DNA of 41,101 nt from a virus: the IMG/VR virus record IMGVR_UViG_3300028031_000006, positions 1 to 41,101 of that record; one strand, given 5' to 3'. Positions 146 to 13,926 of this stretch are shown one piece after another (position 1 is the first letter of the stretch; each line of letters begins with the position of its first letter). The position numbers and the translations under genes are program-made. The notes beneath the pieces were generated by a model that worked only from the letters and a program-made list of their open reading frames with translations, was not told where the DNA came from and did no database searches.

Positions 146-565
146 TTCATCGGACAAATACCGACTTTGCTTCAACTCACCTTCTAGTTTTTCTATCTTA
201 GAGTAAGCATCATCAAGCTCCTCTTCCACGCTTTCGCAATCAGCTCGAACTCCATCGGGCTCTTCTTCCACTTGGATTATAGATGGTATGCCGTTATCTT
301 CATTCATAACTTCCCACCGGAAATACTCTTCTTTTCCTGAAACAGAGTCTTCTCGCTTTATCACAGCAGTGTGTTCGATGCTGTCCGGCCCCGTCGTAAT
401 TAAGCGTTGTCCGTAATCGCCACTGTAAAGCTCCTGATAAGCCTCTAACCATTGGTGTTTTGACCAATGTCCGCAGCCCCGTTTTTCATTAACTAGCTCC
501 AGTACGGTTGATGCGACGATAATCGCCGCGATTAGTTTAAGTAGTTCTTTGTGTTGTGGTTTCAT
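77..565 (-). CDS. Small membrane-anchored protein with coiled coil, unknown function
   Basis: 162 aa, no recognised family. Residues 8-22 are hydrophobic, followed by a charged segment, so an N-terminal membrane anchor is likely. Residues 43-52 (YQELYSGDYG) and the later YFRWE (81-85) match a module present twice in the next gene of the operon (40237-41025, reached across the circular join). Residues about 112-150 are heptad-rich and should form a coiled coil. The start overlaps the stop of the 562-828 gene by 4 bp, indicating translational coupling. Function cannot be inferred. Confidence 0.8.
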   Translation of the reverse strand: MKPQHKELLKLIAAIIVASTVLELVNEKRGCGHWSKHQWLEAYQELYSGDYGQRLITTGPDSIEHTAVIKREDSVSGKEEYFRWEVMNEDNGIPSIIQVEEEPDGVRADCESVEEELDDAYSKIEKLEGELKQSRYLSDELIDQLTRLQKLIVVITTEVQPE

Positions 566-828
566 TTCGCATTACCTGTTTCGGCTTGTTCTACTAAAGT
601 GGATTCGAGGCCGCCGTTCACTACCATTAGGTCAAACTTTCGCTTCGCTGCGTCATAACTCCCGAACATCCCGTTACTGCAAAAAATACTTTTGGTCGTT
701 TCGTGTACGGCATAGCACCGGCCATTAGCGTAGGGTTTAATCAGCTTTATCAAGTTGACGTGACTCCCGTCCTCAAAATTCGCGTACTCTATTAAAGGAC
801 TCGCGAACACTCTTTTTGGTAATGTCAT
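562..828 (-). CDS. Hypothetical early protein, 88 aa
   Basis: No family recognised. The protein is small, soluble-looking and basic at the N terminus. The ATG follows an AAGAGG Shine-Dalgarno sequence 8 nt upstream, and the stop overlaps the next ATG by 4 bp. It is the first gene after the hairpin at 856-895, which lies in its 5' untranslated leader. Confidence 0.75.
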   Translation of the reverse strand: MTLPKRVFASPLIEYANFEDGSHVNLIKLIKPYANGRCYAVHETTKSIFCSNGMFGSYDAAKRKFDLMVVNGGLESTLVEQAETGNAK

Positions 829-855
829 TCTATTTACCTCTTAAAGGTTTAGTTA

Positions 856-895
856 ATACAGTCAGTGGCACTCTTGCGAATGCCACTTGCTGTAT
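856..895 (-). other. Conserved RNA hairpin, copy 1
   Basis: Outer stem 856-861/890-895, inner stem 864-870/881-887 and a 10-nt loop at 871-880, read CTCTTGCGAA on the plus strand. Copy 2 at 2955-2992 has the identical loop and the same TC/TG internal mismatch, while stem bases change in pairs. It starts flush with the TGA of the 23-codon gene. There is no U-tract after it, so it does not look like an intrinsic terminator; a processing site or protein-bound RNA element is possible. Confidence 0.7.
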
Positions 896-966
896 CAGCT
901 TATGGCCAGGTCGCGGCTCTGCGATATAGCCACCGGTTGTTGGTCGTCTGTTATTAATGCATACAT
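895..966 (-). CDS. 23-aa microprotein
   Basis: An ATG at 966 opens a 23-codon frame (begins MYALITDD, ends SRDLAIS) with stop TGA at 895-897. The ATG sits directly behind the same ACAGGAGAATA leader that precedes three neighbouring genes, which is the main reason to call it. The hairpin at 856-895 begins at its stop codon. No homology can be judged at this length. It could be a leader peptide for the gene downstream. Confidence 0.6.
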   Translation of the reverse strand: MYALITDDQQPVAISQSRDLAIS

Positions 967-968
967 AT

Positions 969-983
969 TATTCTCCTGTTTTA
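969..983 (-). repeat. Recurrent leader core, copy a
   Basis: The 15-bp core TATTCTCCTGTTTTA (plus strand) contains the Shine-Dalgarno sequence ACAGGAG of the 895-966 gene. Exact copies lie at 1275-1289, 1613-1627 and 1829-1843. Here similarity to copy d continues leftward into the gap, through TTTTGGTTCAGTTGTT, to about 1002. Confidence 0.9.
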
Positions 984-1009
984 AAGTTTTGGTTCAGTTG
1001 TTGTGAGCG

Positions 1010-1270
1010 TTATGCCGGTGACGCGATGTGCTTCTTTAAAAACTCCTTACATACAGAGCCGACGTCGACATTAAAAGAGGTGCTTTTTTCGCCCTCGGTT
1101 ATCGTCATTGACATTATTGGGTTCCCGCAACCAGCGCCGCTAGTTAGGTTTAACTCAATCAGCTCGCCCTCGGCGTTTTCGGTCTCTATCGATAACCATT
1201 CTTGGTGAAAGCCGCCGACCGATAATTTATCTCGTCCTACGGGCTTTAGCTCAAAAATCGGGTTCTTCAT
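1010..1270 (-). CDS. Hypothetical early protein, 86 aa
   Basis: No family recognised. It looks like a small beta-rich soluble protein. The ATG at 1270 follows the recurrent ACAGGAGAATA leader (copy b). It lies in the leftward early unit, separated from neighbours by short leader gaps rather than by overlaps, so each gene here has its own ribosome binding site. Confidence 0.75.
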   Translation of the reverse strand: MKNPIFELKPVGRDKLSVGGFHQEWLSIETENAEGELIELNLTSGAGCGNPIMSMTITEGEKSTSFNVDVGSVCKEFLKKHIASPA

Positions 1271-1274
1271 TAGA

Positions 1275-1289
1275 TATTCTCCTGTTTTA
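1275..1289 (-). repeat. Recurrent leader core, copy b
   Basis: Exact copy of the 15-bp leader core, supplying the ribosome binding site of the 1010-1270 gene. Confidence 0.9.
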
Positions 1290-1307
1290 GGTTTACGTGT
1301 TTACGTT

Positions 1308-1610
1308 CTACTTGGTTACTGAGCCTATCTCACCTTTAAGGCGTTTCAAGCTTTTGTACTCGTCCACACTAACCCACCTTGTGGACTGTAGCGCCTTGAT
1401 TTTGCGCTTAGCTCGAAACGTCAAGGTCAGATAAGCTCGATAAGATAAAGCGGGTTTATCAATCTTGATGTCCTCCAATATGCTTTCTAGCTCGTCCGCG
1501 TCGTTGGTTTTCGTTATGAGGTCGGAATAGTACGTCGCGTCCTCCCGTTTTTGTTTCTTCGCTTCTTTAAAAAGCTGCTTTTCAGACTTAAGTAGTGGGT
1601 TCATCCACAT
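1308..1610 (-). CDS. Hypothetical basic protein, 100 aa
   Basis: Lys/Arg-rich and mostly helical, with no recognised family. The first ATG at 1610 is 6 nt after the GGAG of leader copy c. A second ATG two codons later could also be used. The basic character would allow nucleic-acid binding, but no motif supports this. Confidence 0.7.
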   Translation of the reverse strand: MWMNPLLKSEKQLFKEAKKQKREDATYYSDLITKTNDADELESILEDIKIDKPALSYRAYLTLTFRAKRKIKALQSTRWVSVDEYKSLKRLKGEIGSVTK

Positions 1611-1612
1611 GT

Positions 1613-1627
1613 TATTCTCCTGTTTTA
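1613..1627 (-). repeat. Recurrent leader core, copy c
   Basis: Exact copy of the 15-bp leader core in front of the 1308-1610 gene. The match with copy d extends to 26 bp through GGGTTTTGGTT. Confidence 0.9.
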
Positions 1628-1637
1628 GGGTTTTGGT

Positions 1638-1826
1638 TTACGTGTTTACAATCTCTTTTGCGGCGTCCAGTGCTTTCGAGTAGCCGTGGAAAGCTCCCGT
1701 AAACTGACCGCCGATGAACAGTTCGGTATCGGTTTCGCCTTTTTGCATGTGGCCCAATCCGATAATGGTTATGTTCACGGTGCTTTCGTTCAGTAGTTTT
1801 ACTACGTCGGGTTTTAGCTTTTGCAT
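1638..1826 (-). CDS. Hypothetical protein, 62 aa
   Basis: Small protein with no recognised family; it contains a GGQFTGAFHGYSKALDAA segment. The ATG at 1826 follows leader copy d. Its size, orientation and spacing match the other genes of this leftward early cluster. Confidence 0.7.
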   Translation of the reverse strand: MQKLKPDVVKLLNESTVNITIIGLGHMQKGETDTELFIGGQFTGAFHGYSKALDAAKEIVNT

Positions 1827-1828
1827 TT

Positions 1829-1843
1829 TATTCTCCTGTTTTA
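1829..1843 (-). repeat. Recurrent leader core, copy d
   Basis: Exact copy of the 15-bp leader core in front of the 1638-1826 gene. Similarity to copy a continues through GGTTCAGTTGTT, which here covers the stop codon of the 1854-2444 gene. Confidence 0.9.
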
Positions 1844-1853
1844 GGGTTTTGGT

Positions 1854-2444
1854 TCAGTTGTTCGGGAACTTGTAAAGATGCCGTAGCCAGGGGGCGGTAA
1901 GCGGCGAGTGCCGGTCAAAGTACCCTACCTCCTGATGCACTTGAAAAGGACTCGGGACGATAATCTTGAGTGCGCTTGGTTTGAAAAACCCTTGTTGTTG
2001 ACGCCGATTCGCCGCTAGTATCGCTTGTTGCCCATGCCGGTGCAGTTTGCCGTAATACGCTATCTGACTGGAGTGGATCGTGTCACGCTCAACGAAGCAA
2101 GGTGTATCAAAGCGCGTGCGTAGGATCTTAGCGACGCGGTGGGCGTTGGTTACTCGTGCCTTGTTGTGGGTTCTTAACGTGTCACGAAGTTGATGGTACC
2201 GTTTTTGCTTTAGTGTGAATACTACTTCGCGCTGTTTGGCTATATCGTCGAACTCATCGGCAGCCCAGTGAGGGGCGACGGTTTGCATGTACCAGTGGTA
2301 TTGAGCACTGTGAGAGTAAAAGTCGGTCTCGTGTTTGGGCGTTGTTTTTATATCATACCAGATATGCTCCAGATCCCGGTTTTTAGCTTCTAACAGCGCC
2401 GCTATGTGGTGTTCATCTTTAATTATTTGTTGGATTGTTTTCAT
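1854..2444 (-). CDS. Hypothetical protein, 196 aa
   Basis: No family recognised. It is His-, Arg- and Gln-rich and largely helical through about residue 120, with a C-terminal half containing a QQQGFF stretch. Its ATG overlaps the stop of the coiled-coil gene 2441-2731 by 4 bp, so the two are probably translated together. Function unknown. Confidence 0.75.
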   Translation of the reverse strand: MKTIQQIIKDEHHIAALLEAKNRDLEHIWYDIKTTPKHETDFYSHSAQYHWYMQTVAPHWAADEFDDIAKQREVVFTLKQKRYHQLRDTLRTHNKARVTNAHRVAKILRTRFDTPCFVERDTIHSSQIAYYGKLHRHGQQAILAANRRQQQGFFKPSALKIIVPSPFQVHQEVGYFDRHSPLTAPWLRHLYKFPNN

Positions 2445-2731
2445 TCTTGGCCACCTTCCAGTTCTTTAATACGTTGCTCAAGATCGTCTATCGTATCGTT
2501 GAGCCGATCCACAGTCTCATAAAGTTCTCGCTCTGATTTCTCAACCTCACCTTCGAGTTCAACTATCTCGTCTTGCGCTAACTCAAGTTCAGTCATCAAT
2601 TCCTCGTCGCTTTTAGCTTCTTCCAGTGCAGCGGCTAACTCCTTAGCCAGTTGTGCGCGTACCGGATCGGCATCGTACTCGTAAGCCTTAGCCAGTTCGT
2701 TGGCGTTTAGCATTGATAGTGGGTTACTCAT
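2441..2731 (-). CDS. Acidic coiled-coil protein, 96 aa
   Basis: Residues about 28-93 form a long, highly charged heptad pattern (repeated ELE/EVE and LxxxIxxLEQRI), which predicts a continuous coiled coil. There is no recognised family and no catalytic motif. It overlaps the upstream gene (2724-2924) by 8 bp and the downstream gene by 4 bp. Many phages carry such small dimerising early proteins; the partner is unknown. Confidence 0.75.
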   Translation of the reverse strand: MSNPLSMLNANELAKAYEYDADPVRAQLAKELAAALEEAKSDEELMTELELAQDEIVELEGEVEKSERELYETVDRLNDTIDDLEQRIKELEGGQE

Positions 2732-2924
2732 CTCGTTCGCCTTTTAGGTTTGTTGGTCGGGGCGCTCGTGCCATGTATTTATTCCAAGCGAGGTTTTCAA
2801 TGCGACTGTAGATACTCAAACAGTCGCCGGTTTTGATGTCGACCCACCGATCATTGTCGGCGTATCGCTTTATAGCCCACTTGACCACTTTTAGGTACTT
2901 ATCCGATTTCTGCTTGACGTTCAC
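2724..2924 (-). CDS. Hypothetical basic protein, 66 aa
   Basis: Starts with GTG at 2924, placed behind the Shine-Dalgarno sequence AAAAGGTG. Lys/Arg/Trp-rich with no recognised family. Its leader holds hairpin copy 2 (2955-2992), so its expression may depend on that structure. Confidence 0.7.
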   Translation of the reverse strand: MNVKQKSDKYLKVVKWAIKRYADNDRWVDIKTGDCLSIYSRIENLAWNKYMARAPRPTNLKGERDE

Positions 2925-2954
2925 TGTTGTTCACCTTTTAGGTTGTAAAGTTGT

Positions 2955-2992
2955 CACAATCGGCGGCACTCTTGCGAATGCTGCCTGTTGTG
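2955..2992 (-). other. Conserved RNA hairpin, copy 2
   Basis: Outer stem 2955-2959/2988-2992, inner stem 2962-2968/2979-2985, loop CTCTTGCGAA at 2969-2978 (plus strand), identical to the loop of copy 1. Compared with copy 1, an outer G-C becomes A-T, inner A-T becomes G-C and inner T-A becomes C-G. It begins at the base next to the TAG stop of the upstream gene. A TTGTCACAA motif (2951-2959) like those in the 3.9-4.5 kb control region overlaps its outer stem. Confidence 0.7.
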
Positions 2993-3496
2993 CTAACTCC
3001 AGTCGTTGGCTTGCCCTTCTAGTATCTCCATGCCTTCAGCGATTTGGCTGATCTGATCGTCCAGCATGATAGCCTGTCCTGAACAGCCGCGACCCCATAC
3101 AGTAAAACCAAGCATTTCCTGGACAGGCTCGCCCAGTGCTCCCAGTTTCTCGCCGAGATACGCCGATATCGCCCAGTATTCTAGGATCTCGTGGTACTCC
3201 AGATCAAGTCCTAGCTCTTCACAGGCTTCCTGGTCTGTGTCAGCTGTAAACGCTGTTTGGTAATCAGTCGAGTAAAGAGTACCGTTTTCATCTCTTGGCG
3301 TAACAGTTACGTCATTGTACTCCAGCGTTTTCGCATAGTCAGGAGTAGAGTGCAGATCGTCATACTCTTCTTGCCAACTGCTCGCGCCGTTTTCGCTTAG
3401 GAAGGTGAACACTGGTCCAAGGTTCGATATAACTTCCCGTGCTACTAGCTCGCTTTTGATGGCTTGGTTGGCGGGTGAATTGTAATCGTGTTTCAT
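2993..3496 (-). CDS. Conserved phage/plasmid hypothetical protein, 167 aa
   Basis: The C-terminal half (EYWAISAYLGEKLGALGE followed by GFTVWGRGCSGQAI) matches, from memory, a widespread family of unknown function in phages and plasmids with the pattern HWIVSxWLAxKL...LTVWxRTTTGQAI. The N-terminal half is variable and acidic. The ATG follows GAGGCAACCAAA, an SD leader shared exactly (15 bp) with the 3546-3815 gene. No biochemical role is established that I know of. Confidence 0.8.
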   Translation of the reverse strand: MKHDYNSPANQAIKSELVAREVISNLGPVFTFLSENGASSWQEEYDDLHSTPDYAKTLEYNDVTVTPRDENGTLYSTDYQTAFTADTDQEACEELGLDLEYHEILEYWAISAYLGEKLGALGEPVQEMLGFTVWGRGCSGQAIMLDDQISQIAEGMEILEGQANDWS

Positions 3497-3923: not shown

Positions 3924-4481
3924 TTCTGCCTCAAAAATATCGATTCTGCCTCAAAAATAAAAACGGCCTTGTGACAAAATATTTGTTTATAATCAACCAC
4001 TTAGCGCACGTTGTCACCTGTGCTTTTATTTTTGAGGCAGACTTAAGTCCTTGATTTTAAAGGATAAAAGGCCTTTTTGCCTCAAATACTTATTGAATAT
4101 ATAAACTTGATTAAGTATAGAAATATAAAAGGTACTATTACAGGTTTTACACGGTTTTGTGTAACTACACGGCTGCTACCGGCTGGCAGGTCTTTGGTTT
4201 TACTTGGTGTTTTTGAGGCAAAACGGCGTTTTCCTGTTTAAAACCAACAGGTTACGTTGTCACAGCTTAAAAAGGTCTTGTGACAAGGTCTTGTAAGTGG
4301 TTGATATTAAAAGGTTATTTTGTCACTTGTTGATTTTCGCGTAGGTTTTTAAAGAGCTGTTTAAAATCAATGACTTACAATAGTCTAAATTTATTTTGTC
4401 ACAGCTTTTTAGGGTAGAATAGTGAGGCTTTATGCGGGTTTGCGGCGATTCTGCCTCAGCTTTGAAATGGTCTTGTGACAA
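3924..4481. repeat. Control region with two interspersed short repeats (candidate origin or operator array)
   Basis: Motif A (TGCCTCA with flanking A-tract) occurs at 3924-3939, 3944-3959, 4027-4041 (inverted), 4077-4088, 4209-4220 (inverted) and 4449-4458. The first two are exact 16-mers 20 bp apart. Motif B (TTGTCACA or its complement) occurs at 3969-3977, 4011-4017, 4257-4264, 4278-4286, 4319-4325, 4396-4403 and 4473-4481. An A/T-rich stretch lies at 4081-4140. No credible gene fits in 3816-4524. The layout resembles an iteron-type origin or a repressor array between divergent units; the sequence does not decide which. Confidence 0.7.
4093..4121 (+). promoter_or_regulatory. Possible rightward promoter inside the control region
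   Basis: -35 TTGAAT (4093-4098), 17-bp spacer, -10 TATAGA (4116-4121). It lies in the A/T-rich part of the repeat array, where such matches arise easily. It could provide a transcript through the array for origin activation. Confidence 0.3.
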
Positions 4482-5519: not shown

Positions 5520-6122
5520 ATGAACCTATCACGCGAAGAAATACTGCAAATCGTGCACTTCACGGTACAACAGTTATTTGATAAAAACGGAGAAAAGAAC
5601 GACAAAAAATTCGCCGACATAGAACAAAGACTCGCTGATTTAAACTTAAAACGAGTTCGAGAAGCACGCCAAAGTATGAGCGTACAGCCGCTGCTTACCC
5701 AACGATCCAAAAGCTATACCGATTCAACAGACCCTGCTAAAAATCTCGGGGAAACCGGTGACTTCTATGAGAAGAACGACGGAGCTGGAGTCATCACTGA
5801 AAAGTTCACTAAGGAAGACGGACGATGGGTATCCCTTGGAACCTACGCCACGGCAGCTTCCGGCACATCACTGGTCATAGCTATGACAGGTGGCCCACAC
5901 ACAGATTACGTGTCAATGGGTGGCGTATTAGACGATTCCAACCAACTTTACAACATACCGGGTGGCTATGTAGCAGGCACTCTAGTAGCATATTTCCAAG
6001 GACAAGCCTCATTCAAAGGTGAGGGCATCACCGAAACAAACCCCGCTACCGGCGACTTCACCTTCACTTTATTTACACCTAACCCCGGCCAATACGTGGC
6101 TGCAAGATACGAGGCTGCATAA
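5520..6122 (+). CDS. Fibre-like or appendage protein with N-terminal coiled coil
   Basis: 200 aa. Residues about 10-50 are helical and charged (probable trimerising coiled coil). Residues about 75-110 (GDFYEKNDGAGVI through DGRWVSLGTY) resemble the short repeat common in phage tail fibres, where a turn ending in W-x-x-x-G follows a GDxY strand. The last 80 residues are Gly/Thr/aromatic-rich beta structure and may be a receptor-binding or capping domain. No SD is present; the leaderless start is at 5520. The stop overlaps the next ATG by one base, so both fibre-like genes are probably co-translated. Confidence 0.6.
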   Translation: MNLSREEILQIVHFTVQQLFDKNGEKNDKKFADIEQRLADLNLKRVREARQSMSVQPLLTQRSKSYTDSTDPAKNLGETGDFYEKNDGAGVITEKFTKEDGRWVSLGTYATAASGTSLVIAMTGGPHTDYVSMGGVLDDSNQLYNIPGGYVAGTLVAYFQGQASFKGEGITETNPATGDFTFTLFTPNPGQYVAARYEAA

Positions 6123-13874: not shown

Positions 13875-13890
13875 CGTTAGGCTAACAGTG

Positions 13891-13926
13891 CTCCGATATC
13901 GGTATTCCGATGTCGGAGTACCTTTT
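13891..13926 (+). terminator. Intrinsic terminator after capsid gene
   Basis: A 12-bp stem with one G-T wobble (13891-13902 with 13907-13918) around a TATT loop, followed shortly by TTTT (13923-13926). It is the most stable hairpin I found in the rightward unit. The T-run is short, so partial read-through to the tail genes is expected, as after capsid genes of other podophages. Confidence 0.8.

Follow-up and report, generated by a model that had tools for sequence, protein, structure and literature searches.

The two hairpins found at leftward gene junctions of the IMG/VR virus record IMGVR_UViG_3300028031_000006 (positions 1 to 41,101, the whole analyzed stretch of 41,101 nt, hereafter the window) are probably intercistronic RNase III processing signals of the T7 R1.1 type, at which cleavage of the message is predicted. 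The best reading of their sequences is an R1.1-type variant with a symmetric internal loop. A role in message cutting is considered the most likely because the set of hairpins to which they belong includes T7 R1.1, a textbook case of a site cut by RNase III. Conservation in these hairpins resides in the upper stem (GCAUUC/GAGUGC, including a U·G wobble pair) and not in the loop.

According to the preliminary description, two hairpins at 856–895 and 2955–2992 share a 10-nt loop, CTCTTGCGAA (871–880 and 2969–2978), as well as a TC/TG mismatch and a two-stem layout. The hairpins, the common 10 nt, the mismatch and the layout are present as described, and the 10-mer has 0.15 expected occurrences per shuffled window. 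Since the genes flanking both hairpins run leftward, the RNA corresponds to the minus strand; there, the supposed loop reads UUC-GCAA-GAG, i.e., U·G, U-A and C-G pairs closed by a GCAA tetraloop. Both transcripts follow one plan with a 10-bp upper stem, a 2×2 CA/GA internal loop and a lower stem, and the minus strand of hairpin 1 reads UGAUACAG-CA-AGUGGCAUUC-GCAA-GAGUGCCACU-GA-CUGUAUUA. The features are listed below together with the scores of CM R2, a covariance model built from 24 hairpins with T7 excluded.

852–899, minus strand: hairpin 1 as sense RNA, with a lower stem, a 2×2 CA/GA loop, a 10-bp upper stem AGUGGCAUUC/GAGUGCCACU and a GCAA loop (fold −26.9 kcal/mol, z −8.5; CM R2 53.3 bits).
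2950–2997, minus strand: hairpin 2 as sense RNA, with the same plan, an upper stem GGCAGCAUUC/GAGUGCCGCC, one A·C mismatch and a GCAA loop (fold −20.6 kcal/mol, z −5.9; CM R2 51.6 bits).
871–880, minus strand: UUC-GCAA-GAG of hairpin 1, 3 bp and a GNRA tetraloop (sequence, fold).
2969–2978, minus strand: UUC-GCAA-GAG of hairpin 2, the identical 10 nt (sequence, fold).
862–863, minus strand: GA on the 3′ side of the internal loop of hairpin 1, partner CA at 888–889; predicted RNase III cleavage region (fold; chance-level pairing at positions 11–12 in 31 members; cleavage predicted from T7 R1.1).
2960–2961, minus strand: GA on the 3′ side of the internal loop of hairpin 2, partner CA at 2986–2987 (on the same basis as in hairpin 1).
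895–966, minus strand: 23-aa ORF upstream of hairpin 1, with a TGA stop overlapping the hairpin base (translation; Shine-Dalgarno AGGAG just upstream).
562–828, minus strand: gene downstream of hairpin 1, starting 45 nt past the loop (gene position).
2993–3496, minus strand: gene upstream of hairpin 2, with a TAG stop flush with the stem (gene position).
2724–2924, minus strand: gene downstream of hairpin 2, starting 47 nt past the loop (gene position).

The stop codons flush with the hairpins (TGA, 895–897, and TAG, 2993–2995, both on the minus strand) are separated from the loop by 17 nt in both cases, and inspection of the sequence confirmed that neither hairpin has a U-tract on its 3′ side. 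The folding z-scores of the plus strand are −6.0 and −4.5 for hairpins 1 and 2, respectively. At least three compensatory changes between the copies had been claimed, and four such pairs were found, two in the upper and two in the lower stem; at one more differing pair, the plus strand has G-T and the transcript a mismatched A·C. The preliminary description had also named recent duplication of the surroundings as a possible cause of the similarity. The copies align over 43 nt at 77%, and as this similarity stops at the hairpin edges, they do not stem from a recent duplication of their surroundings.

A search in Rfam detected no family at the gathering score and none at E ≤ 10 over either hairpin, and no confident family match was obtained for the genes adjoining the hairpins. 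The proteins of the window phage include a type A DNA polymerase, a helicase, a primase-polymerase and a Gp2.5-like protein; neither an RNA polymerase nor an RNase III was detected among those scanned. Other repeats and hairpins were observed in the window. The AT-rich region that separates the leftward from the rightward gene block contains, at 3925–4041, three copies of TCTGCCTCAAAAATA (two direct and one inverted) and is operator- or origin-like. The leader repeat TATTCTCCTGTTTTA occurs four times (969, 1275, 1613 and 1829) at leftward gene starts and contains the Shine-Dalgarno sequence. Just past the major capsid gene (13881–13924, plus strand), a strong 15-bp hairpin with a TATT loop followed by CTTTTA is a candidate terminator or processing site.

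Relatives of the window hairpins, the absence of which would have spoken against a selected element, were found in phage contigs by pattern and covariance-model searches. The exact 16-nt core matched 83 viral DNA stretches, many of them coding, and about 25 proved to be long hairpins at gene junctions; the many exact matches of the first pattern within ORFs were excluded as coding. In total, 126 non-redundant hairpins sharing this top were found in phage contigs, 89 of them intergenic. A same-strand stop codon lies within 60 nt of the loop in 74 of these 89, and only one is antisense; gene calls in these contigs are mechanical, and the named phages have annotated same-strand genes on either side. 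The stop-to-loop distance has a mode of 18 nt, and the next start codon often follows 40–57 nt past the loop.

The carriers include jumbo phages of Pseudomonas (Lu11), Erwinia, Dickeya and Yersinia, Dickeya JA33, and T5-like Vibrio Thalassavirus phages, in which the hairpin is located immediately ahead of the A1 gene. River4, a Vibrio phage, likewise carries it at the junction preceding A1. In fHe-Yen9-02 and a few others, the alignment is confined to about 70–90 nt around the hairpin. No close relatives of the window were found in the viral collection through the gene upstream of hairpin 2, and among the terminase relatives a comparable hairpin was found in only three records (L154, L157 and L161), where the loop reads UUUC on the gene strand. 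BLAST analysis of named phages with a 38-nt family hairpin gave chance matches only. No covariance-model match at E ≤ 1e-5 was found in 114 gammaproteobacterial genomes, where stricter filters were used and weak matches may be missed. In 84,980 species genomes, none of the six matches to the CA/GA pattern is a real hairpin; all were coding and had short stems. Two further kinds of hairpin were observed at the junctions of relatives. In jumbo phages (L344–L355), a second small hairpin with the Shine-Dalgarno sequence in its loop lies just ahead of the downstream start and takes the forms GTTC-TGAGGA-GAAC or AAGC-TGAGGA-GCTT, the stem changes being compensatory. Vibrio phage Cilsick (L361) has a GGGCTG-TAAAT-CAGCCC hairpin and a 17-bp hairpin where the junction of its relatives has the GCAUUC hairpin.

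The relatives show which part of the hairpin is conserved. With the loop unconstrained and AGGGCAUUC/GAGUGCCYU required as the stem, loops of 3–9 nt were obtained (3, 4, 5, 6 or 8 nt in 46 stop-proximal intergenic hairpins); GNRA accounted for 5 of the 15 tetraloops in the latter, and a GNRA loop as the conserved feature was therefore dropped. When the stem was freed, independent CA/GA members with other GNRA loops were found (L179, GGAA; L180, GAAA; L184, GTGA), as well as L004 (GCAA). Among 12 orthologous hairpins from jumbo phages of Erwinia, Dickeya and Yersinia, conservation is lowest in the loop (CAAC, TAAC, GAC, GCT, TGCG, TAGC, GTAT and TAAT) and the stem is nearly constant: 160/160 pair cells remain paired, chiefly via G-C to G·U changes, which pair in the sense RNA only, and the third pair below the loop is an invariant U·G in all 10 distinct rows. 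In L045, L082 and L224, for which only the outer stem served as the search pattern, the U·G is retained in 12 of 13 copies although pairs 1 and 2 vary. Conservation of the top pairs is partly imposed, because the patterns with which most sequences were found fix five or six pairs at the top; this bias does not affect the orthologous and outer-stem sets. Since loops vary freely in length and sequence on a constant stem, the conserved loop of the preliminary description is in fact conserved upper stem, and the argument from the loop was mistaken. A tetraloop-receptor dimer was dropped because the loops are free, and stop-codon read-through because in-frame stops lie inside the hairpins.

The overall architecture is a two-turn stem broken one turn below the loop. 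In 31 members, counting from the loop, pairing is near complete at positions 1–10, at chance level at 11–12, high at 13–23 and again at chance level from 24. In 24 diverse sequences, 15 of 20 pairs are altered on both sides, and the covariation score is 0.534 versus 0.181 ± 0.021 for shuffled data and no more than 0.19 with the partners slid. This covariation, together with the sense orientation behind stop codons, supports the view that the element is a selected RNA.

Comparison of CM R2 with the T7 genome gave a single strong match, at 5849–5897 (E 6e-5). This is R1.1, described in PMC6121014 as a 60-nt RNase III signal that lies between T7 genes 1 and 1.1 and has an asymmetric 4/5 internal loop; its cleavage position is nt 5887 (reviewed in PMC8708148), within the match. 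R1.1 and the window hairpins have in common 14 identical nt, CAUUCGCAAGAGUG, a 10-bp upper stem, an internal loop, a lower stem and a location between co-directional genes. R1.1 differs in its asymmetric loop, with UAUGA on the 3′ side, and in the 3′ flank UAUGAUUGACC, whereas the window copies have the symmetric 2×2 CA/GA loop and are flush with a stop codon; they thus fall outside the R1.1 sub-type, which has the asymmetric loop and UAUGA. L294 and L312 serve as bridges (AUCAAGGGCAUUC...GAGUGCCUUUUAU versus CUCAAGGUCAUUC...GAGUGGCCUUUAU of R1.1) and have the CAAGG...CCUUUUAU flank of R1.1; a UC/UA internal loop, as in R1.1, was found four times among the relatives. The other T7/T3-type stem-loops (R0.3, R0.5, R1, R1.3 and R4.7; annotated in phiSG-JL2) share with the window hairpins the position between stop codon and Shine-Dalgarno, an upper stem of about 9–12 bp, a variable loop and usually an internal loop, but conserve CUCAAGGUC...GGCCUUUAUGA instead of GCAUUC/GAGUGC. 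Most T7 and annotated phiSG-JL2 RNase III stem-loops lie 16–37 nt after the stop codon and have unrelated loops. The score of CM R2 was weak for R0.3, which is also GCAA-capped (E about 1), and poor or absent for the other RNase III stem-loops of T7 and phiSG-JL2.

Like T7-type sites, the window hairpins are thus intercistronic, lie on the sense strand, have a two-turn stem with an internal loop and resemble an established site. An RNase site was one of the roles suggested in the preliminary description; the covariance-model match to R1.1 supports it, and we infer from this likeness the binding of RNase III, the place of the cut and the effect on expression. At the end of a cistron, the leftward polycistronic mRNA would form a hairpin with a length of about 22 bp. 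Its two turns of stem would be bound by the host RNase III, with the cut falling at the internal loop or close to it, about 10 bp down from the apical loop. The cut would separate the cistrons: the upstream message would keep a hairpin at its 3′ end, and the downstream message would begin at a newly formed 5′ end shortly before its Shine-Dalgarno sequence. In R1.1 derivatives, a 12-bp stem with a tetraloop suffices for single-strand cleavage (PMC8708148), and a stem of 18 to 22 bp with an internal loop is therefore a plausible substrate. The freedom of the loop also fits an enzyme reading the stem. It counts against the RNase III reading that the internal loop of T7 sites is asymmetric and that their stem is conserved in another part, as do the low or missing CM R2 scores of the other T7 and phiSG-JL2 stem-loops. 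To our knowledge, no particular upper-stem sequence is required by bacterial RNase III, so the conserved U·G wobble and CAU/GUG are left unexplained by the simplest RNase III idea.

The same U·G pair, retained in the orthologous and outer-stem sets while its neighbors change and for which RNase III has no known need, would suit a stem-specific site for an RNA-binding protein of the host or phage that reads the CAU/GUG wobble stem as a stability, decay or translation switch. This explanation is nevertheless unlikely, as R1.1, with this very stem, is an RNase III cleavage site, the unrelated carriers have no candidate protein in common, and the neighbors of the window hairpins have no confident family match. 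A generic stable hairpin, guarding 3′ ends of upstream mRNA or insulating translation and involving no dedicated nuclease, would account for the great stability, the position directly behind stop codons and the frequent stable tetraloops. The intercistronic CUUCGG hairpins of T4 are likewise stable hairpins after a stop codon, as in the window; we know of no conserved internal loop or U·G stem signature in them. Stability by itself does not predict an internal loop at a fixed distance, a length of about 22 bp or a conserved U·G pair that is not optimal, and this explanation appears rather improbable.

A few relatives (L018, L058 and L023) have a T-run, as would be expected of a transcription terminator. 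The window copies and most members lack a U-tract, and the co-directional gene often begins so close behind the loop that little room for a promoter would remain if the hairpin terminated transcription, which makes termination very unlikely. A hairpin DNA element, also allowed for in the preliminary description, would be a single-strand replication or promoter site, and the plus strand does fold too. The U·G and G·U pairs, however, are kept in the sense direction only and function only on the transcribed strand, and intergenic copies are sense to the upstream gene in 74 cases versus 1, so there is hardly any likelihood of such an element; an N4-type promoter hairpin was dropped for the same sense-strand wobble pairs.

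Phage-message processing by RNase III is classically a story of the T7 group. The number of unrelated phages with these hairpins, and the conservation of a part of the stem rather than of the loop, are new here. No account of this spread was found in an open-access library, which does not prove that none exists. The loops of bacterial RNase III sites are reported to be little conserved, and the sites to have no strong consensus (PMC8708148). Given the weak sequence preference ascribed to this enzyme, it is surprising that an upper-stem sequence is shared and so widely spread, and the occurrence of GCAUUC/GAGUGC across unrelated phages therefore needs explaining, either by descent through exchange or by an undescribed sequence preference. 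A tentative and rather doubtful possibility is a phage-wide RNA processing code, in which the wobble GCAUUC/GAGUGC stem, read independently of the loop, would give RNase III or a partner factor a sequence-specific determinant and would have been repeatedly acquired or evolved in T7-like, T5-like, jumbo and other phages. A recognizable signal common to unrelated phages would permit annotation of processed operons from sequence, and comparison of its natural variants would make the sequence information read by RNase III a testable question.
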